A stretch of 64,000 nt of DNA from Tessaracoccus sp. SD287 (lineage in GTDB: Bacteria; Actinomycetota; Actinomycetes; Propionibacteriales; Propionibacteriaceae), in the NCBI RefSeq assembly GCF_017355265.1, contig NZ_JADIJQ010000003.1, positions 1 through 64,000 on the forward strand, written 5' to 3'. The first letter of the stretch is position 1. Every line of letters starts with the position of its first letter. The position numbers were made by a program, and so were the translations under genes. Below, piece after piece: positions 3,783 to 62,426 of the stretch. A model generated the notes under the pieces. The model was not told the DNA's origin and searched no databases. It saw only the letters and a list, made by a program, of their open reading frames with translations.

Positions 3783-5342
3783 ATGTCCACCGTTGATCCC
3801 ACGTCGGTTGATCCCACGTTCCACAAGTCCACCCATGAGTCGGGCGCCCCGCGTGACTCCGACGCCCATTCGCTGAGCGTCGGCACGGACGGGCCGCTGC
3901 TGCTGCACGACGTGGCCCTGGTCGAGAAGCTCGCCCGCTTCGACCGCGAGCGCGTCCCGGAGCGTTCCCCCCACGCCAAGGGTTCGGGTGCGTTCGGGGA
4001 GTTCACCGTCACCCATGACGTCAGCCGCTACACCAAGGCCAAGTTCCTTCAGCCCGGGGCCAGGACGCGGATGTTGGCCCGGTTCTCCACCGTCGCCGGT
4101 GAGCTGGGCTCGCCGGACACCTGGCGTGACGTGCGTGGTTTCGCGCTGAAGTTCTACACCGAAGAGGGCAACTTCGACATGGTGGGCAACAACACCCCCG
4201 TGTTCTTCGTCCGCGACCCGATGAAGTTCCCCGACTTCATCCACTCGCAGAAGAGGATGCCCGACACCGGTCTGCGCTCGAACAACATGCAGTGGGACTT
4301 CTGGAGCCTGTCGCCCGAGAGCGCCCATCAGGTCGCCTACTTGATGGGTGACCGTGGCCTGCCCCGCACCTGGCGCCACATGAACGGTTACTCCTCGCAC
4401 ACCTACATGTGGGTCAACGAGGCCGGGGAGAAGTTCTGGGTCCAGTACCACTTCCACACCAACCAGGGCGTCGAGAACATCACCAACGAGGAGGCCGGCA
4501 AGCTCGCCGGCGAGGACGCCGACTTCCACCGTCGCGACCTGTTCGAGGCCATCGAGCGGGGCGAGCACCCCAGCTGGAAGTTCAGCGTCCAGGTGATGCC
4601 CTATGCCGAGGCGAAGACCTACCGGTTCAACCCGTTCGACCTGACCAAGACCTGGTCGCACAAGGACTACCCGCTGATCGAGGTCGGTGAGTTCACCCTG
4701 AACGAGAACCCCACCAACCACTTCGCGCAGATCGAGCAGGCCGCCTTCAGCCCGTCGAACACCGTGCCCGGCACCGGACTGTCCCCCGACAAGATGCTGC
4801 TCGGCCGCGTCTTCAGCTACCCGGACGCCCAGCGCCACCGCATCGGGACCAACTACAACCAGCTGCCGGTGAACCAGCCCATCACCCCGGTCAACGACTA
4901 CGGCAAGGAGGGCAGCATGGAGTACCGCCACAGCGGCAACGCCCCGGTCTACTCCCCCCACTCCTACGGCCGGTCCTACCAGTCCGAACAGGGTCCGGCC
5001 GCCAACGGCTGGGAGTCCGACGGTGCCCTGGTGCGCAGCGCCTACTCCCTGCACGCCGAGGACGACGACTTCGGCCAGGCCCACACCCTGGTCCGCGAGG
5101 TCTACACCGAGGAGCAGCGCCAGCGCCTGATCGAGACCGTCGTGGGTTCGCTGCTGGGTGGTGTCGAGGAGCCGGTGCTGTCGAACGTGTTCACCTACTG
5201 GCGCCACATCGACCAGCAGGTGGGCCAGCAGATCGAGCAGGACTACCGCACCCGGGTCGGCGACCAGTACCCCGGCGGTGACCCGATCGACGGGCAGCCC
5301 GACACGGTGTTGCCGCAGACCAACACCCACGCGGCGCACTGA
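3783..5342 (+). CDS. katA: monofunctional haem catalase KatA
   Basis: A 519-residue small-subunit catalase (clade 3 size) that dismutates hydrogen peroxide to water and oxygen in the cytosol. The distal haem histidine lies in [21 protein letters not shown] near residue 64, the catalytic Asn in [14 protein letters not shown], and the proximal tyrosine in [17 protein letters not shown]. The region is full length with no breaks. Translation starts with ATG (MSTVDPTS) behind a weak GAGG site. The gene follows the Fur-like regulator and probably shares its message. It ends about 55 bases before a strong palindromic hairpin that serves as a shared terminator with the convergent MarR gene. Confidence 0.97.
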
Positions 5343-5396
5343 CCGGCTGACCGCAGCAACGCGGCCCTTGCGCCCGCCCAGTTGCCCGCAGTAATG

Positions 5397-5430
5397 ACGG
5401 CTGCCCCTGCTTCGAAGCAGGGGCAGCCGT
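5397..5430. terminator. perfect 34-base palindromic hairpin between convergent genes (repeat family copy 1)
   Basis: A perfect palindrome, centred on GCTTCGAAGC with CTGCCCC and GGGGCAG arms, follows katA. The minus-strand side continues with CGGGCAACTG, a sequence also seen in copy 2 of the family. It can act as a bidirectional intrinsic terminator between katA and the MarR-like gene, although the T-run is weak. Related hairpins are at 20570, 51570 and 52928. Confidence 0.75.
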
Positions 5431-5528
5431 TGTGATCTGGGGTGTGTGTGCTCGTCCGGGGCAGGTGGCAGCTGGTGGACTGGGATGGGTGCGTGGACGC
5501 ACCGGCGCGTGGCCTCAAGCGATGAGGG

Positions 5529-5966
5529 TCACTCGGCGCCCGTCCAGCCCAGGTTGGTGGCCATCCGCTCCAGCGTGTGGATGGCGGCCTGGTACTCCTC
5601 GGGCGTGATGCCCTCGGCAGCCTGCGTCCGCACCTTGTCGACCACACCGGCCAAGGTGACCAGGCTCGTGGTGCCGCGTTCGGTGAGCTGGTAGTGCTCC
5701 TCGACGATCTCCACCCAGCCGGACTCGACCAGCTCGCTCAGGTGCTCCTGCGGGTCGCTGGGTTCGTCCTGGCCCGCATGCTCAGCCACGAAGGGCGCCA
5801 GCATGCTGAGCAGTTCCTCGCCGGTCGCGGTGGTCCCGTCCAGCACGTTGAGGAGTTGCCATTGCAGCCGGGTGACACCGTGCTCCTCCAGGGAGCGGGC
5901 GAACTGCTCGGTGATGAGCATGTCCACGAGCTTGAGCCAGAATCCGATGGGGCGCTGGGTGTCCAT
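5529..5966 (-). CDS. MarR-family transcriptional regulator
   Basis: A 145-residue winged-helix protein of MarR type. The N-terminal dimer helix (PIGFWLKLVDMLITEQFARSL) is followed by a helix-turn-helix (VTRLQWQLLNVLDGTTATGEELLSML) and the wing region HLSELVESGWVEIVEEHYQLTERG, then a long C-terminal helix closing the dimer. It starts with ATG and lies downstream (3' side) of adhE's end on the same strand, with 93 bases between. No effector or target can be inferred; a DinB/EmrR-style drug or phenolic sensor is typical for the family. The gap to adhE holds a GC-rich inverted repeat (CGGCGGCCCGCCGACGGGC) that may end the adhE message. Confidence 0.8.
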   Translation of the reverse strand: MDTQRPIGFWLKLVDMLITEQFARSLEEHGVTRLQWQLLNVLDGTTATGEELLSMLAPFVAEHAGQDEPSDPQEHLSELVESGWVEIVEEHYQLTERGTTSLVTLAGVVDKVRTQAAEGITPEEYQAAIHTLERMATNLGWTGAE

Positions 5967-6059
5967 GACGCGAGCCTATGCTGCCGTTGAGGGCGCTGGC
6001 AGCAACTAGGACGCGCTGTGCGACGGACCGGCGGCCCGCCGACGGGCCCAGTGGCGGCC

Positions 6060-8732
6060 TCAGGCGTCTGCCCCCACCGACTCCGGCACCTCCTCCACCG
6101 GCACCGGGCGTGAGCGCACCTGGTCGAAGCTCGATCCGTAGTAGGCGGCCTCCATCAACGTCCTCATGTCAGCAAGCATCGGCATCCTGGGGTTCGCCGG
6201 TGCGCACTGGTCCTCGTAGGCGGCCATGGCCAGTTCCTGCAAGCTGGACACGAAGGACCCCTCGTCAACGCCCTGGGCCTGGAAGGAGGCCTCGATGCCC
6301 ACCCGGTCACGGAGGCCTTCCACCGCCCTGGCATAACTCTCGACGCCCTCGTCCGGTGTCGAGGCCGGCAGGCCCAGATGGGCAGCAATTTCCTGGTATC
6401 GCTGCGGGGCGACGTAGCGCTCGTACTTGGGCCAGCCCGAGAGTTTGCTCGGTACTCGACCGTTGTAGCGGATCACGTGGGGAAGGTAGACCGCATTGGT
6501 GCGCCCGTGCGGCAGGTGGAACGTGGCACCGGTGACGTGGGCCATCGCGTGGACGATGCCCAGGAAGGCGTTGCCGAAGGCCATCCCCGCGATGGAGGCC
6601 GCATTGTGCATCTTCTCCCGTGCCCGCAGGTCGTCGGGATTGGTGCTGTGGGGCTGGGTCAGCGCGCTGCGTTCGATGTTCTCGAAGATCAGCTTGATGG
6701 CGTGCAGGCACAGTCCGTCGGTGTAGTCGTTCGCGTACACCGACAGGTAGGCCTCGGTGGCGTGGGTCAGCGCGTCGAAGCCGGCGTCGGCAACCAGGAA
6801 GCCGGGCAGCGCCCGGGTGAGCACGGGGTCGACGATCGCCACCGACGGGGTCAGTGCGTAGTCCGCCAATGGGTACTTCATGCCTGTCTGGTCGTCGGTG
6901 ATCACCGCGAAGGGCGTCATCTCCGATCCCGTGCCAGAGGTGGTCGGGATGCAGACCAGCTGGGCGAGCTTGCCGAGTTCGGGGAACTTGAAGGCCCGCT
7001 TGCGGACGTCGAAGAACTTCTCGCGCATGTCCGAGAACTGGGTGTCGGGGTTCTCGTAGAGCAGCCACATCACCTTGGCGGCATCCATCGGGGAACCACC
7101 GCCCAGGGCAATGATGGTGTCCGGTCTGAACTCCCTCATGGCCTGGGCACCGGCCTTCACCTCCGAGAGCTTGGGCTCGGGACGCACCTGGTCGAGCACC
7201 TGCACCTGCACCCGGTTCGCCCGGCGGCTCAGGACATCGGTGACCCGGTCGACGTAGCCAAGATCGGTCATCGTCTGGTCGGTGACGATGGTCACCCGCT
7301 GGACGCCGCGCATGTCCTGCAGGTAGCGCAGGGCGTTGGCCTCGAAGTAGGTCTTGGCCGGCACCTTGAACCACTGCAGGTTGTTGTTGCGTCGACCGCT
7401 GCGCTTGACGTTCACGAGATTCACCGCCGAGACGTTGTTGGAGACCGAGTTGTGGCCATAGGTTCCGCAGGCCAGGGTCAGTGAGGGCATGAAGGCGGTG
7501 TAGACGTCACCGATGCCCCCGAGTGCTGAGGGCGAGTTCTCGATGATGCGCACCGCCCTGACCGCCAGACCGAAGGCGGTGATGACCGCCTGGTCGTTGG
7601 AATGGATGGCACCGGAATGTCCCAGGCCGTCGAACTCGACCATCTGACGGGACAGTTCGATTCCGTGGTCCGGGGAATCTGCTCGCAGCACGGCCAACAC
7701 GGGGGTCAGCTTTTCGCGGGTGAGCGGTTCGTGGGGCCCGACGCCAGCGACGTCGGCCAGCAGGATCGAGGTGTCCTCGGGAACCGAGAAGCCTGCCTGC
7801 TCAGCGATCCACACCGCTGACTTGCCGACTGCGGCCGAGTTGAGCTTGGCCTCGGCGCAGCTGGCGCTGTGGGCCGAGACGCCGAACAGGAACTCCTCGA
7901 GCATGCGCTTCTGGTCGGGGGTGGTCCGGAAGGCGTGCAGCCGCTGAAACTCCTGGAGTGCTGCCTCGGCGATCGGTGCGTCCAGGATGACGGCCTGTTC
8001 GGAGGCGCACACCATGCCCATGTCGAAGGACTTCGACAAGACGATGTCGTTGACGGCGCGTCCCACGTCGGCGGTGCGCTCGATGAAGGCCGGTACGTTG
8101 CCCGCGCCCACACCCAGGGCCGGCTTGCCACAGGAGTAGGCGGCACGCACCATGGCGTTGCCGCCGGTGGCGAGAATGAGTGCCACTCCTGGGTGGTTCA
8201 TCAACTCGCCGGAGGCCTGCGTGGACGGATTGTCGATCCACTGGACGCAGTGCTCCGGCGCCCCGGCTGCGATGGCCGCGTCGCGGACGATGCGCGCAGC
8301 CTCGGCCGAACAGCGCTGGGCCGACGGATGGAACCCGAAGATGATCGGGTTGCGCGTCTTCAGGGCCAGCAATGCCTTGAAGATGGTCGTCGAGGTGGGA
8401 TTGGTGACCGGCGTCAAGGCGCAGACCACCCCGACCGGGTCAGCGATCTCGGTGATGCCCGTGAGTTCATCGTGGGAGATGACGCCGACTGTCTTCTGGT
8501 TGATGATCGAGTTGGTGACGTGTTCGCAGGCGAACATGTTCTTGACGGCCTTGTCCTCGAACAACCCGCGGCCGGTCTCCTCCACGGCCATGAGGGCGAG
8601 GGTTCCGTGGTGGTGCAGTGCAGCCACCGAGGCGTTGCGGACGATGTGGTCGACCTGTTCCTGGGTGAAGGACGCGTAGTTCGTCAGGGCCTGTTCGGCT
8701 CTGCCGACGAGTTGGTCAATGGGAGTGGACAT
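6060..8732 (-). CDS. adhE: bifunctional acetaldehyde-CoA/alcohol dehydrogenase AdhE
   Basis: An 890-residue two-domain fermentation enzyme that reduces acetyl-CoA to acetaldehyde and then ethanol with two NADH. The N-terminal aldehyde dehydrogenase half (about 1-440) has the nucleophilic cysteine in [11 protein letters not shown]. The C-terminal iron-dependent alcohol dehydrogenase half (about 450-870) has the NAD loop [12 protein letters not shown] and the metal-binding segments [10 protein letters not shown] and [22 protein letters not shown] with their histidines. Length matches the E. coli enzyme. The start MSTPIDQLV is set by AGGAGA ten bases upstream; the frame stays open for 59 more codons but without a ribosome site. 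The upstream region has a perfect Rex operator, so transcription should respond to the NADH/NAD ratio. AdhE normally assembles into cytosolic spirosome filaments. Confidence 0.97.
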
Positions 8733-56180: not shown

Positions 56181-57290
56181 TCAGGGCAGGTGGAGCTCCC
56201 ACCCCTTGCCACGCATGGCATCGGCCAGCGCCTGCACCGAGCCGGGGTCGACGGCCACCGACAGGTAGCCGTACTGGCGCGACGGGTCGTGCTCGATGGA
56301 CAGGTCCTCGACGTTGATGCCGGCCGCATCCACGTCGGTGAACAGCCTGGCGAGCGCACCGGCGGCGTCGGGAATCTCGATGGTGACGGTGACGAACGCG
56401 TCGGGGCTGAGCCCGTGCTTGCCCGGTAATGACCGGGCCCCGGCGCGGCCGCGGGCCAGGAAGCCCTCCAGGGCGTCGGGGTCGTCCAGGACGCCGAGCA
56501 GCTCGTCCAGGTCGGCGCGGACCCCGGCCAGTTCGGCGCGCACCGCCTGCCGGTTGCCCCACAGGATCTGTCTCCACAGCCCCGGGTCGGAGCCGGCGAT
56601 GCGGGTGACGTCGCGGATGCCCTGCCCGGCCAGCGGCAGGTGGTCGCTGGGCACCCCGCGCAGGTGACCGGCCGTCAGGATGCTCATCAGGTGCGGCAGG
56701 TGGCTCACCTGGGCCACCGCCTGGTCATGCTCGACCGGATCCATCCAGACCACCCTGGCCCCGCAGATGGTGGCCAGGTCACGGACCCGGGCGATGTCGG
56801 CCTCGGCATTGGCCGGGGTGGGGGTGATCACCCAGGTGCGATCGATGAACAGGTCGGCGTCAGCGGTCAGCGGCCCCGAGAACTGCGAGCCGGCCATGGG
56901 ATGCGACCCGACGTAGCGGTGAGCGTCGGCCGCGTCGATCGAGTCAATGATGATCGACTTCACCGAGGCCACGTCGGTCACGGTGGCCTGCGGAAACCGG
57001 TCCAGGGCGTCGTCGACGACGCTGGCCACGTGGGCCGGTGGGGTGGCAACGACGACGAGTCTCACCGCATCGGGGCTGGCGGCTGTGACCACCCCCGCTC
57101 CCCTGCCGGCGGCGACGATGGCGTGGCTGGGCACCCGGTCCTCCAGATGCACCCGGTAGCCGGCGGCGCTCAGCGCGCAGCCAATGCTGGCGCCCACCAG
57201 CCCAGTGCCGATGATGACGACCGGTCCGGTCAGGCCACCATTCAGGCCACTGTTCGGGCCACCAAGGGGGTCAGGGGTCGCGTCGGGCAT
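56181..57290 (-). CDS. tyrA: prephenate dehydrogenase with C-terminal ACT domain
   Basis: A 369-residue enzyme converting prephenate to 4-hydroxyphenylpyruvate in tyrosine synthesis. NAD motif VVIIGTGLVGASIGCALSAAGYRVHLED near residue 24; SHPMAGSQFSGP holds the active-site histidine; dimer helices LPHLMSILTAGHL follow; then an ACT regulatory domain (about 290-369: VTVTIEIPDAAGALARLFTDVDAAGINVEDLSIEHD) for feedback by tyrosine or phenylalanine. Gly/Leu-rich N-terminal repeat (GGPNSGLNGGLTGP) is variable. ATG start. It lies 36 bases downstream of pup. Confidence 0.94.
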   Translation of the reverse strand: MPDATPDPLGGPNSGLNGGLTGPVVIIGTGLVGASIGCALSAAGYRVHLEDRVPSHAIVAAGRGAGVVTAASPDAVRLVVVATPPAHVASVVDDALDRFPQATVTDVASVKSIIIDSIDAADAHRYVGSHPMAGSQFSGPLTADADLFIDRTWVITPTPANAEADIARVRDLATICGARVVWMDPVEHDQAVAQVSHLPHLMSILTAGHLRGVPSDHLPLAGQGIRDVTRIAGSDPGLWRQILWGNRQAVRAELAGVRADLDELLGVLDDPDALEGFLARGRAGARSLPGKHGLSPDAFVTVTIEIPDAAGALARLFTDVDAAGINVEDLSIEHDPSRQYGYLSVAVDPGSVQALADAMRGKGWELHLP

Positions 57291-57326: not shown

Positions 57327-57527
57327 CTACTGCCCGCCGCGCTGGACGAAGGTGCGGACGTAACCGGCCGGGTTGGCGTCAATGACCGCATCGATCTGGT
57401 CGAGCAGGTCCTCGAAGGAACTGTCGGACGCCTGCGGCTGGCTGCTGGACGACGTCAGGCGCAGTTGCTCCTCGGCGGGGCCGTCGTGGCCCTGCCGCTG
57501 CTGTCGGGACTGCTGCTGGTCGCTCAT
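57327..57527 (-). CDS. pup: prokaryotic ubiquitin-like protein Pup
   Basis: A 66-residue intrinsically disordered tag. Its Gln/Ser/Arg-rich N-terminus is followed by the conserved SFEDLLDQIDAVIDANPAGYVRTFVQRGGQ end. The final Gly-Gly-Gln shows that it is made in the Gln form and needs deamidation by Dop before PafA can ligate it to lysines. It lies 11 bases after dop on the same strand. No prcBA (20S proteasome) genes follow. Confidence 0.97.
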   Translation of the reverse strand: MSDQQQSRQQRQGHDGPAEEQLRLTSSSSQPQASDSSFEDLLDQIDAVIDANPAGYVRTFVQRGGQ

Positions 57528-57538
57528 CGCGGGCCAGT

Positions 57539-58831
57539 CTATGTCCGGACGTCACCGAACGGGTCGCGCAGGTCGATGCGCGGGGTGTCGGACTCACTCG
57601 ACAGGATGAGCTGGCTCCAGTCGGCGCGCGCCACCCTGCCCTCGTGCTCGGTGAGCAGCGCAGCCCGGACTGCGGCGCGGGTGCCGGTCGGCGCCGTGCG
57701 CATCGCCAGCTGCACTGCCGCCGGCTCCACCAGCTGACGCAGTCGTCCGGCCGCCTGTAGCTTCAGTGCCAGCCCCCGCTCGGGGTCGAGCTCGTGCCAC
57801 TGCAGGTCGACGGCGGCGACACCGGCGTCGTCCCAGTCCCACCCGTGGCGGCGTCTCAGGCCGTCCAGCAGGGCGAGTTTCGCGGCCCAGTCGACCCGGT
57901 CGGCCAGCAGCCCGGGATCGGCCTCGGCGTCACGGATCAACTCGTCCCACAACTCCAGCACCAGCGCCCCGTCGGGCAACGCGTCGACGTGGGCGCTGGC
58001 CGCGTCCCAGTACAACCGTTGCAGTTGCAGGGCCGTGCGATCCACCCCGTCATCGCACGGCAGCGCCACCCTCACACCGAGGTCACGGGAGTAGGCCCGG
58101 ACGGCGGTCAGCGGGTCGACCAGCCGCGGCACCCGGCTGTCACCGGTGGCGATGGCGGCCAGCACCAGCGCGGTGCCGCCGACCTTGACCAGGGTGGCCA
58201 CCTGGGCCATGGTGGCGTCACCGGTGATGACGTGCAGCCTCCGCCATCGTCCGGGGTCGGCGTGGGGTTCGTCGCGCGTGTTGACCAGCGGCCGACGCAC
58301 CGTGGTCTCGATGCCCTCCAGCGCCTCCATGAAGTCGGCGCGCTGGCTGATCTGGAAGCCGGGCTGCCCGCCGTGCTGACCCAGCCCGACCCGGCCGGCG
58401 CCGACCAGCACCACCCGGCTGACCAGGTGCCCGGTGACCTGCTCGACGATCCGCGACCAGGGCAGTCGTCTCGGCAGCAGGTAGTTCTCGTGGTAGCCGT
58501 AGCTTCGACCCTTGCCGTCGGTGTTGTTGCGGTGCAGGACGACCCGGTCGTCCAGGTTGACCGAGAGCCGGTGGGCGGCGGCCTGCATCAACTGGTCACC
58601 GGCCAGTTCCCAGGTGAGCACGTCGGTGGCGCTGACGCACTCGGGGCCCGAGTACTCGGGGTGGGCGTGGTCAACATAGACGCGGGCACCATTGCCGAGC
58701 ATCCGGTCGAGGTGCCCGACCCCCAGGCCCGGCACGCGGAGGACGACACCCTCGGACAGTTGCACCGGGTTGGCCGCGCGGTCGCGCAGGCTGATGCCGT
58801 ACTCGATCTCGCTGCCCAGCACCATCCTCAT
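57539..58831 (-). CDS. dop: Pup deamidase/depupylase Dop, lacking the Dop loop
   Basis: A 430-residue member of the glutamine-synthetase-like Dop/PafA family. VLGSEIEYGIS at the N-terminus, VYVDHAHPEYSGPECV (Dop-type; PafA has an extra residue here), NTDGKGRSYGYHENYL and NTRDEPHADPGRWRRLHVITGDA are intact. Between NPVQLSEGV and GNGARVYVD only about 20 residues occur, whereas Dop of Mycobacterium has about 60, including the flexible 'Dop loop' over the active site. Total length is about 70 residues below the mycobacterial protein. TAGGCT lies seven bases before the ATG, so the message is probably leaderless. Deamidates Pup and removes it from tagged proteins. Confidence 0.92.
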   Translation of the reverse strand: MRMVLGSEIEYGISLRDRAANPVQLSEGVVLRVPGLGVGHLDRMLGNGARVYVDHAHPEYSGPECVSATDVLTWELAGDQLMQAAAHRLSVNLDDRVVLHRNNTDGKGRSYGYHENYLLPRRLPWSRIVEQVTGHLVSRVVLVGAGRVGLGQHGGQPGFQISQRADFMEALEGIETTVRRPLVNTRDEPHADPGRWRRLHVITGDATMAQVATLVKVGGTALVLAAIATGDSRVPRLVDPLTAVRAYSRDLGVRVALPCDDGVDRTALQLQRLYWDAASAHVDALPDGALVLELWDELIRDAEADPGLLADRVDWAAKLALLDGLRRRHGWDWDDAGVAAVDLQWHELDPERGLALKLQAAGRLRQLVEPAAVQLAMRTAPTGTRAAVRAALLTEHEGRVARADWSQLILSSESDTPRIDLRDPFGDVRT

Positions 58832-58881: not shown

Positions 58882-59262
58882 ATGGCCAAGCAGTATGCGA
58901 TTCTCGTCGACCTGGTGCTCGTGCTGGTCTTCGCCACCATCGGACGCGCCAGCCACGCCGAGGGGCTGACCCCCAACGGCATCCTGAGCACCGCCTGGCC
59001 GTTCCTGACCGCCTGCCTGGTGGCTTGGGCCGTGATGTTGATCCGCCGCCGCGACCACCTGGGTCTGGGCGCCGGCCTGTTCACCTGGTTCATCACCTGG
59101 GCCGGTGGCCTGTTCTTCCGGGTGTCCAGCGGCGACACCGCCGAGACGCCGTTCATCATCGTGGCCGGCGTCGTGCTGCTGCTGTTCCTGGTGGGCTGGC
59201 GCCTGGTCGCCCGGCTCGTCACCCGCCGCAGTACGCCGGCCGCGTCAGTGGCTGACCAGTGA
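58882..59262 (+). CDS. DUF3054 membrane protein
   Basis: A 126-residue protein with four hydrophobic helices (ILVDLVLVLVFATIGRASH, ILSTAWPFLTACLVAWAVML, LGAGLFTWFITWAGGLFFRV, PFIIVAGVVLLLFLVGWRLVARL). DUF3054 proteins are widespread in actinobacteria, often next to pup-system or redox genes, and have no known function. TAGGCT (58870-58875) lies six bases before the ATG, indicating a leaderless mRNA, in mirror image to dop. Its end overlaps arc by 18 bases. Confidence 0.85.
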   Translation: MAKQYAILVDLVLVLVFATIGRASHAEGLTPNGILSTAWPFLTACLVAWAVMLIRRRDHLGLGAGLFTWFITWAGGLFFRVSSGDTAETPFIIVAGVVLLLFLVGWRLVARLVTRRSTPAASVADQ

Positions 59263-60786
59263 GCGGACCCAGCTGATCCGCATCCCGCGGCGTCCGCTGA
59301 TCCGGGCCCAGTCGTCCGGGTTGGTGGTGTTGGGCAGGTCCTCGTTCTCGCGGAACTCGTCGCGGGCGGCCTGCAGCAGACCGGCGCGTGAGACTCCCCC
59401 CGCACCGCCGACCAGTTCGTCCTTGATGGCGAAACGCTTGGCCCGGTCGACGATGTTGCGCAGCATCGCGCCCGAGGAGAAGTCGCCGAAGTACAGCACC
59501 TCGCTGCCGCCGTCCACGTAGTTCACCTCCAGGAACCGGTTGTGGTGGTCGCGGGCGTAGATGTCGTCGACCACCGCATCGATCAGCGCCCCGACCTCGT
59601 CGCCGGCGGCGATCGGCACCTCGGCGACCAGGTACTTGGCCAGGATGTCGCGGGCGCCCTCGGCATCGGGACGATCGAGCTTGATCTTCACGTCCAGTCG
59701 GCCGGCGCGCAGGATGGCCGGGTCAATCATGTCCTCACGGTTGGAGGCACCGATGACGATGACATTGTCCAGCCCGACCACCCCGTCGATCTCGCTGAGC
59801 AACTGCGGCACCACCGTGGATTCCACGTCGGAGGAGATGCCCGACCCGCGGGTGCGGAACAGGGAGTCCATCTCGTCGAAGAAGACGATTACCGGACGAC
59901 CGCTGGTGGCATGCTGGCGGGCCCGTTCGAAGATCAACCGCACCTGACGCTCGGACTCGCCGACGTACTTGTTCAGCAGCTCGGGGCCCTTGACGTTGAT
60001 GAAGATGCTGCCCGGGGCGTCCGGGTCGGCCTCGGCCCCCGACGGCTGCAGCTGCTCCCCCAGCGAGCGGGCCACCGCCTTGGCGATCATGGTCTTGCCG
60101 CACCCGGGCGGGCCGTACAGCAGCACGCCCTTGGGCGGGGTGAGCCGGTAGTTCGCGAACCGCTCCCGGTGCAGGAACGGCAGTTCGACCGCATCACGGA
60201 TCGCCTCGATCTGGGCGGCCAGGCCACCAATGTCCTCGTAGCTGACGTCGGGCACCTCGGTGAGCACCAGTTCCTCGACTTGCTGGCGGGTGACCAGCGC
60301 CACCGCCAGACCGGCGCCCCGTTCGATCCGGACGGTGTCCCCGGCGCGGCCCTGCGCCGCCGAACCGACCAGCCGCAGCCGCACTTCGTCCTGACCGGCC
60401 TGCACGACGGCCAACCCGTCGGTGGCCTCGACGACCCGGCCGACCTCACCGCTGGGGTCCTCGGCCGCCGGGTGGGCGGTGATGACCAGGCCCTCGTTGA
60501 GCAGCACCAAATCGCCGGGGGCCAGCTGGTCCAGGGCCACGTCGGCGGCGGCCACCACCCGCAGCATCCGTCCGAGCACGAAGACGTCGACGAACTCGTC
60601 GACCACCGCGACCACCCGGCCCCGGGTCAGCGGCGGCTGTCCCAACCGGTCGAGCCGCTCCTTCATGGCCAGCAACTGGGCCCGCGCATCCTTGATGGTG
60701 CGCGACAGGGTCTCGTTCTGGGCGGCCAGCGCCTTGGTCTCGGCGCGCGCCTCGGACAGACGACGCTCCAGCGGCGGCTCGGTCAT
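59245..60786 (-). CDS. arc: AAA+ ATPase ARC/Mpa without proteasome-docking tail
   Basis: A 513-residue ring ATPase that recognises pupylated proteins. An N-terminal coiled coil (about 5-50) binds Pup; two OB folds follow (about 55-180); the AAA+ module has Walker [17 protein letters not shown] near 225 and Walker [13 protein letters not shown] near 300, and second-region [23 protein letters not shown]. The C-terminus ends RSLVSH; mycobacterial Mpa ends in Gln-Tyr-Leu, needed to open the 20S proteasome. Its absence fits the missing prcBA. ATG overlaps the upstream gene's stop by 4 bases (ATGA). Confidence 0.95.
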
Positions 60787-62426
60787 GGCGTCTGGTTGTC
60801 CATGGGCACGTTGTCGGGACGAGGGCCGGTGTAGTCGGGGCCGTAGGCGCCCGGCGCCGGACGACGCTTGCGCATCGGCGCCTTGATGCCGGGGGCCAGC
60901 CGGCGGCTGACCACCAGGAATCCGGTGTGCGGACTGGTGCCGTGGCCGGGCCGGATGGCCAGCCCCTCGGCGTGCCACTCACGGATGCTGGTCTCGGTCA
61001 GGTGCGGCTCGGTGAACCCGCCGTGCACCCGCAGGGTGTCGGCGACGCGACCCAACTGGGTGGCGGTGGCAACGTAACAGCACAGCACCCCGCCGGGCTC
61101 GAGCACCTTGGCCACGGCGTCAATGCACTCCCAGGGGGCCAGCATGTCCAGGATGACCCGGTCGACCGGCTCCTCCCGGATCTCGGTGACCAGGTCACCG
61201 ACGGTGATCGTCCAGGCCGGGTGGTCGCGACCCAGGAACGACTCGACGTTCTGTCGGGCCACCTTGGCGAAGTCCTCACGGCGCTCGTAGGACGACAGTC
61301 GTCCGCCGGGGCCGATGGCGCGCAGCAGCGACAGGCTGAGCGCCCCGGAGCCGACGCCCGCCTCCAGCACCCGGGCACCTGGGTAGATGTCGGTGGCCAT
61401 CAGGATCTGGGCGGCGTCCTTGGGATAGATGACGGCCGCCCCCCGCGGCATGGTGGTGGTGAACTCACTCAGCAGGGGGCGCATCACCAGGAAGTTCAAC
61501 CCGCCCACGGTGGTGGCCACGATGCCCTCGGGCTGGCCAATGATGTCGTCGTGGGCCAAGCCACCCTTGGTGGTGTGGAAGGTCTTGCCCGGCACCAGCA
61601 GCAGCGAGTGGCGCCGACCCTTCTGGTCGGTGAGGCTGACCCGTTCACCGGGCAGCATCGGGCCGGTGCGGACCCCCGAGAGGGTCTCGATCTCGTCGTA
61701 GCGGTCGCCGACCAGGTCGTCAATCCAGCGCAGGTCGACGCCCTCCATGGTCTGCACGACCACCCGTCCGGCGGTCTCGTGCAGGATGCCGTCGGTGGGG
61801 CACCCGATCACCACGGCACCGGCGGCCTCACCGGCAATGGCGCCGGGGTCGGAGTCCTCCACCACGACGCAGCGGTGGATGTCGACGCCGAGGCGTTCGG
61901 CGGCGAGCAGGTAGGGCTCGGGGTGCGGCTTGAGGTTGCGGGGAATTTCCTGGGTGATGACGGCGGCGAACTGGTCGGCGGGCAGTCGCGGCAGGACGGC
62001 ATCGGTGATCAGCTTGGGGCTGGAGGTCACCACCGCACAGGGCACCCCGGCGGCCCGGGCCTCGGCGAGCAGCGCCTCGATGCCGGGACGAAACGCCGGT
62101 TCGGTCTGCCGCACCTTGGCGACGACCCGCTCGAACAGTTCGGCCATGAAGTCCTCGGGCCGGGTCTGGTCGTCGCCGAGTTCTTCCAGCATCAGCCGCA
62201 CCGTGCTCGGCACGGAGGTGCCGTTGCGGGCCTGGGCGTCGGCGTAGTCCCAGTGACCGCCGCGTTCGGCCATCATCTCCAGTTCGACGTCGATCCACAG
62301 CGGCTCGGTGTCGACCAGGGTTCCGTCGAAGTCGAACAGCAGCGCCGCGACGTGCTGGGGGCCGGTCGGGTGCTGGGTGGTCGGGTGCTGGGTGGTCGTG
62401 TCCGCGTGGGCGGTGTCAACGGGCAT
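60783..62426 (-). CDS. trmI: HAD phosphatase fused to tRNA (adenine-58-N1)-methyltransferase TrmI
   Basis: A 547-residue fusion. Residues about 25-240 form a HAD hydrolase of the beta-phosphoglucomutase type (LLFDFDGTLVDTEPLW; VVTSSPKLI; VVVEDSDPGAIAGEAAGAVVIG). Residues about 255-520 form TrmI (ERVSLTDQKGRRHSLLLVPGKTFHTTKGGLAHDDIIG; GARVLEAGVGSGALSLSLLRAIGPGG; RVILDMLAPWECIDAV), which methylates A58 of tRNAs. No stop or ribosome site is seen at the junction (about 235-255), so one polypeptide is expected. In other actinobacteria I know the two as separate genes. Its start overlaps metH by 11 bases and its end overlaps arc by 4. Confidence 0.9.
   Translation of the reverse strand: MPVDTAHADTTTQHPTTQHPTGPQHVAALLFDFDGTLVDTEPLWIDVELEMMAERGGHWDYADAQARNGTSVPSTVRLMLEELGDDQTRPEDFMAELFERVVAKVRQTEPAFRPGIEALLAEARAAGVPCAVVTSSPKLITDAVLPRLPADQFAAVITQEIPRNLKPHPEPYLLAAERLGVDIHRCVVVEDSDPGAIAGEAAGAVVIGCPTDGILHETAGRVVVQTMEGVDLRWIDDLVGDRYDEIETLSGVRTGPMLPGERVSLTDQKGRRHSLLLVPGKTFHTTKGGLAHDDIIGQPEGIVATTVGGLNFLVMRPLLSEFTTTMPRGAAVIYPKDAAQILMATDIYPGARVLEAGVGSGALSLSLLRAIGPGGRLSSYERREDFAKVARQNVESFLGRDHPAWTITVGDLVTEIREEPVDRVILDMLAPWECIDAVAKVLEPGGVLCCYVATATQLGRVADTLRVHGGFTEPHLTETSIREWHAEGLAIRPGHGTSPHTGFLVVSRRLAPGIKAPMRKRRPAPGAYGPDYTGPRPDNVPMDNQTP

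Follow-up and report, generated by a model that had tools for sequence, protein, structure and literature searches.

A Dop enzyme without the Dop-loop in Tessaracoccus sp. SD287 and its recurrence within one bacterial family

The dop gene of Tessaracoccus sp. SD287, located in a window of 64,000 nucleotides (the whole stretch of DNA analysed), encodes a Dop from which the Dop-loop has been naturally lost. Dop both trims Pup, a ubiquitin-like tag, and takes it off again, and its loop has hitherto been regarded as a feature of every Dop and of no PafA. Taken together, the evidence makes it probable that this is a genuine Dop in which the whole Dop-loop disappeared by a lineage-specific in-frame loss, with deamidation and depupylation presumably retained. 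The loss is real, natural and recurrent within one family, in an enzyme that is otherwise well known. Throughout, G000 denotes the SD287 genome that contains the window, G001 is a congener (genus g1), and the other g-numbers stand for genera.

Identity and locus of the dop gene

As seen in Table 1, the dop reading frame lies in a locus of the order mpa-dop-pup. It is complete from ATG to stop and contains no internal stops, which agrees with the first-pass annotation, where the gene was described as otherwise complete and adjoining pup. The assignment to Dop made there was likewise borne out by tree, fold, residues and synteny. Against the Dop profile TIGR03688 the protein scores 430.6 bits over profile positions 82-470 only, below the curated equivalog cut-off of 492.3 bits, which is reached only with the loop half. 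The PafA profile TIGR03686 gives 320 bits, under its cut-off of 551.3. The best PDB relatives are the Dops 9cku, 4b0r and 5lrt, and in a joint Dop/PafA tree all true PafAs fall on one side of a branch with support 100 and length 0.94, with SD287 on the Dop side. The PafA-type alpha-loop and the VGSHPEY motif of PafA are both absent; the protein has YVDHAHPEYS. A separate pafA is present elsewhere in the SD287 genome.

Table 1. Features of the dop locus and of the encoded Dop in the window
Feature	Position	Strand	Basis
dop, loopless Pup deamidase/depupylase, 430 aa	57539..58831	-	profile, PDB, fold, tree
pup, 66 aa, C-terminus GGQ	57327..57527	-	ORF and profile search
mpa/arc proteasomal ATPase	59245..60978	-	TIGR03689, 662 bits
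DUF3054 gene, between mpa and dop	58882..59262	+	neighbour
prephenate dehydrogenase (tyrA), directly after pup; relatives with a proteasome have prcB-prcA there	56181..57290	-	
short linker (residues ~31-44, LRVPGLGVGHLDRM) in place of the Dop-loop	58700..58741	-	comparison with aligned Dops of G001 and the M. tuberculosis type
catalytic Asp D54 (Acel D94) in NGARVYVDHAHPEYS	58670..58672	-	invariant alignment column
alpha-loop (residues ~167-179, FMEALEGIETTVR), Dop-type not PafA-type	58295..58333	-	criteria of PMC7947786
Asp404 (Acel S452, beside W453), PafA-like residue	57620..57622	-	Dop alignment

Also in the window, a 547-aa ORF at 60783-62426 fuses a HAD phosphatase to a methyltransferase; these are two genes in G001. 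Judged by its place, the methyltransferase half is presumably of the tRNA m1A58 type.

Absence of the Dop-loop

The Dop-loop consists of 40-65 residues before beta2 and was stated to be present in all Dop orthologues (PMC8599861). Its absence from SD287 Dop contradicts this published statement. GxExEYG and YVD are spaced by 46 residues, compared with 73 to 160 in the Dops scored as loop-bearing (relatives and 80 named genomes) and 47 in the PafAs measured by the same script. Only about 14 residues stand where 45-50 are expected, a PafA-like spacing, and the alignment reads QLSEGVVLRVPGLGVGHLDRMLGNGAR at the site of the loop of the M. tuberculosis-type Dop. The congener G001 keeps the loop, and SD287 Dop is about 35 residues shorter there. 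Lacking these 40-65 residues, the protein belongs to the Dop lineage but is classed as a loopless variant, not as a canonical Dop.

The first-pass annotation had stated that the loop was skipped in about 20 residues and had proposed an alignment to Dops and PafAs; the figure proved right, and the alignment gave the spacings above. Its view that the loop was naturally lost is confirmed by the intact in-frame gene, the lack of a displaced loop and the reduced loops of other genera. A search of the SD287 genome for the loop peptide matched nothing beyond the cores of dop and pafA and some weak noise, which rules out a displaced loop. No direct repeats were found around the loop junction, and an assembly collapse between repeats is thereby ruled out.

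Distribution in the family and beyond

When 198 genomes from the family of SD287 (Propionibacteriaceae) were searched and the genes read directly, the loop proved to be truncated or missing in 22 further species from three further genera. Six species of g18 and 6 of g9 have reduced loops with a spacing of 60, and 10 species of g12 have reduced loops as well, with spacings of 50-51 in the nine that were read; the tenth, G146, was recognised through a DNA pattern for short-spaced Dops. It can be seen that the loss is graded, with spacings of 60, 51 and 46 as opposed to 73 or more in loop-bearing Dops. All of g9 and one species of g18 (G133) carry half a loop with the Trp, in an LDW/LEW...PIPIEDAH remnant. 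The other g18 species carry half a loop without the Trp, and in g12 and SD287 the loop segment is absent.

Outside the family, no loopless Dop was found in either the class sample or the phylum sample. Of 395 genomes in the class sample, 331 match TIGR03688 and 318 exceed its cut-off. Sixteen low or split cases from this sample were re-examined and consisted of genomes with PafA only, fragments that were split or at contig edges, and expanded loops, with no loopless Dop among them. The phylum sample contains 72 genomes with a match, 65 of which lie above the cut-off. The seven below it are SD287 itself, two that were opened and proved to be PafAs (G636 and G648), and PafA-like or fragment matches. 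The readable Dops of 80 named relatives are all loop-bearing. The DNA pattern, which recovers 21 of 22 known cases, was matched in the 395 class genomes only by SD287 and by G566, where the match fell by chance inside a normal loop.

Several other observations on Dop were made in these samples. Dop-loops are expanded in Nesterenkonia, Kocuria, Occultella and Brachybacterium (L054, L046, L038, L083 and L037), with GxE-YVD spacings of 129-160. In one complete genome (G508:C1:7557429-7558887) the Dop gene lies in two frames near profile position 164, a frameshift or pseudogene. One genome has, besides its normal pair, a second and highly divergent dop at L187 (G129:C312, ~4766-7891), with a GGQ pup of its own and another gene of the Pup-ligase family next to it; this set may be an extra pupylation island.

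Pup, Mpa and the proteasome

Wherever pup was found in a loopless genome, the C-terminus of Pup is Gln. Because the Pup of SD287 ends in GGQ and pupylation depends on Dop as deamidase, the SD287 enzyme would at least have to deamidate. No 20S proteasome gene (PF00227) was found in the SD287 genome, an assembly of 66 contigs that is 90.7% complete, or in the complete genome of G001. The Mpa of SD287 ends in ...RSLVSH, without the GQYL proteasome-docking tail; among the relatives read, this tail is present in those bearing a proteasome and absent in those lacking one. Pupylation without a proteasome is known in Corynebacterium (PMC8223512), whose Dop retains the loop as residues H43-I77 (PMC8599861). 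Separately, many genomes of g4, g14, g17, g27, g31 and g35 have PF00227 genes (mostly two copies, one in g14) and no Dop or PafA match, that is, proteasome-type proteases without pupylation.

Of the loopless genomes in the tree set, 19 are without a proteasome and 3 have one; of the loop-bearing ones, 3 are without and 42 have it. Proteasome loss was rejected as the cause of loop loss on account of the two groups of three, and the association comprises two independent contrasts only. Three g12 species are loopless and yet keep prcBA in its canonical place, whereas G001 keeps the loop without a proteasome. Proteasome loss is therefore neither necessary nor sufficient for loop loss, and at most permissive.

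Relaxed selection is one possible account: in the absence of a proteasome, deamidation of PupQ would be the main reason for retaining Dop, strong control of depupylation would have lapsed, and the loop would have decayed neutrally. The indispensability of deamidation for a GGQ Pup and the lack of a proteasome in 19 of 22 loopless genomes speak for it. So does the comparison of G000 with G001, in which identity is 50% for Dop and 61% for PafA, so that Dop diverges faster, and dN/dS for Dop is 0.62; relaxed constraint is thus possible in this sublineage, for which the evidence base is one genome. By contrast, dN/dS between loopless dop pairs within g9, g12 and g18 is 0.13-0.28, which indicates purifying selection on these genes. 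Together with the prcBA-bearing loopless species and the small number of independent contrasts, this makes neutral decay a rather unlikely account, even if a serious one.

Number of loop losses

In a Dop tree built without the loop columns, SD287 groups with G001 and genus g30 (SH-aLRT 98), and all 21 remaining loopless Dops fall into a single clade (support 97), so that two loop changes are required. In this tree the Dop of a sister family lies beside that of Kribbella antibiotica, in line with a placement of the SD287 family as Propionibacteriaceae. In an AU test on Dop, a single clade of all loopless Dops was not rejected (p 0.21), a result in which long branches matter. By itself, this would leave room for a horizontal replacement, in which the dop of SD287 came, already without its loop, from the g9/g12/g18 clade and a single loss accounts for all cases. 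The PafA tree, however, pairs SD287 with G001 at 100/98, and a PafA clade of all loopless genomes is rejected (p 0.0009, with an outgroup row, G023, that is the Dop of that genome). The gene order around dop is also the same in G001 and SD287. Against this background a horizontal replacement is improbable. A separate loss in the SD287 lineage appears the better reading, favoured by the grouping in the Dop tree, the PafA test and the gene order shared with G001.

Active site and structure

The active-site residues D94, H95, H97, E99, H155, R205, R227, H231, H241 and W453 (Acel numbering) are all kept in SD287 Dop, as are the loop partners R90 and Y92. Judged from these residues, the enzyme looks active. 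Thirteen sites that discriminate Dop from PafA were checked; SD287 is PafA-like only at position 452, and A211 and L212 match neither enzyme. The alpha-loop and nearly all of the discriminating residues are thus those of a Dop. Trp47 of the loop packs on Trp453, the neighbour of Ser452 (PMC8599861). Position 452 is not Ser in any of the 16 Dops without the loop Trp (Asp, Thr, Gly or Asn), while Dops with the Trp mostly have Ser there, with exceptions. As the rows are related by descent, this is no more than suggestive of a coupling between the loss of Trp47 and that of Ser452.

Structure modelling, which the first-pass annotation had proposed, gave a Dop fold. The AlphaFold model (pLDDT 93.3) matches the Dop 4b0r with Z 55.5, an rmsd of 1.6 over 424 residues and 43% identity, compared with Z 45.0 and 34% identity for the PafA 4bjr.

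A drift towards some Pup-ligase side activity might be imagined from the loop loss and the PafA-like Asp at 452, because Dop becomes a ligase when its loop is deleted and its alpha-loop swapped (PMC7947786), S452D occurs in SD287 and g18, and L219R occurs in g9 and several g12 members. It is very improbable, since the alpha-loop, which decides between Dop and ligase behaviour (PMC7947786), remains Dop-type in SD287 (F208, E210, G214, I215, E216), H95 is kept and the genome has its separate PafA. That an assembly or sequencing artefact removed the loop, as the single draft genome and the loop of G001 might suggest, is hardly credible given an in-frame, stop-free linker of unrelated sequence, repeat-free flanks, a model confident at the junction (pLDDT 85-93) and loop-reduced Dops in 22 other assemblies, some of them single-contig.

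Proposed mechanism and significance

When the active site is empty, the Dop-loop plugs it; Pup displaces the loop, and Trp47 then comes to stack on R90, close to the nucleotide (PMC8599861). In C. glutamicum Dop, replacement of the loop made Pup binding 2.5-fold tighter, the lag longer and kcat 2.3-fold lower (PMC8599861). For M. smegmatis, PMC7947786 and PMC9556782 cite Hecht et al. 2020 for a Dop that depupylates faster once its loop is deleted, and partial deletions in M. tuberculosis changed the set of accumulating substrates, an altered substrate choice (PMC9556782).

The loopless Dop of SD287 would still deamidate PupQ and depupylate proteins through the ADP/Pi chemistry of other Dops. 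The plug of the empty site would be missing, as would Pup sensing by Trp47 and its help in positioning the nucleotide. Tighter Pup binding, a phosphate-formation lag set by other contacts and weaker selectivity among pupylated substrates would be expected. From the known roles of the loop and the engineered deletions, one would expect a Dop that is loopless by nature to act as an open and ungated amidase, with a kinetic effect of unpredictable direction. The constitutive depupylase suggested by the first-pass annotation is plausible; the in vitro reports on loop deletion conflict. The loss was probably tolerated because depupylation no longer competes with degradation where the proteasome is absent. 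In such cells the most likely roles of pupylation are unfolding by Mpa or a reversible marking, on the pattern of Corynebacterium.

More broadly, it may tentatively be proposed that loopless Dops are a functional class of their own, sensing Pup and priming ATP by a route that bypasses the Trp47 loop. In at least two lineages this loop and the surface it contacts (Trp47, and residue 452 beside Trp453) would have disappeared step by step, giving an ungated Pup recycler in cells that have largely separated pupylation from degradation by the proteasome.

That the loop is dispensable for Dop activity was known already; natural loopless Dops contradict the published generalisation, and they show that Dop can persist in nature without the loop. 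Whether the loop inhibits, promotes or redirects depupylation is disputed among three laboratories. All of them used engineered deletions in enzymes that had evolved with the loop, whereas the Dops described here evolved without it. The graded natural series permits Trp47 and the remaining loop to be tested separately, with the loop-bearing G001 as control. Curated Dop models will under-call loopless Dops.

Comparison with known systems

The Dops of Acidothermus cellulolyticus, Corynebacterium glutamicum and Mycobacterium (4b0r, 5lrt, 7oxv-7oyh, 9cku) have the same fold, active-site residues and alpha-loop type as SD287 Dop, as well as the same gene neighbourhood and Pup partner; C. glutamicum also lacks the proteasome, as SD287 does. 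They differ in the loop of about 40 residues with Trp47 and in Ser452, where SD287 has about 14 residues, no Trp, and Asp. The engineered variants DopGS and Dop-delta-loop (PMC8599861, PMC7947786, PMC9556782) are loopless like SD287 Dop and are active in vitro and in cells; they were made in the laboratory, whereas the SD287 loss is natural and has other changes alongside. PafA (4bjr, 4b0t) belongs to the same superfamily and has almost the same beta1-beta2 spacing (47, against 46 in SD287 Dop). Unlike PafA, SD287 Dop is of the Dop type in its alpha-loop, in H95 and in overall similarity.
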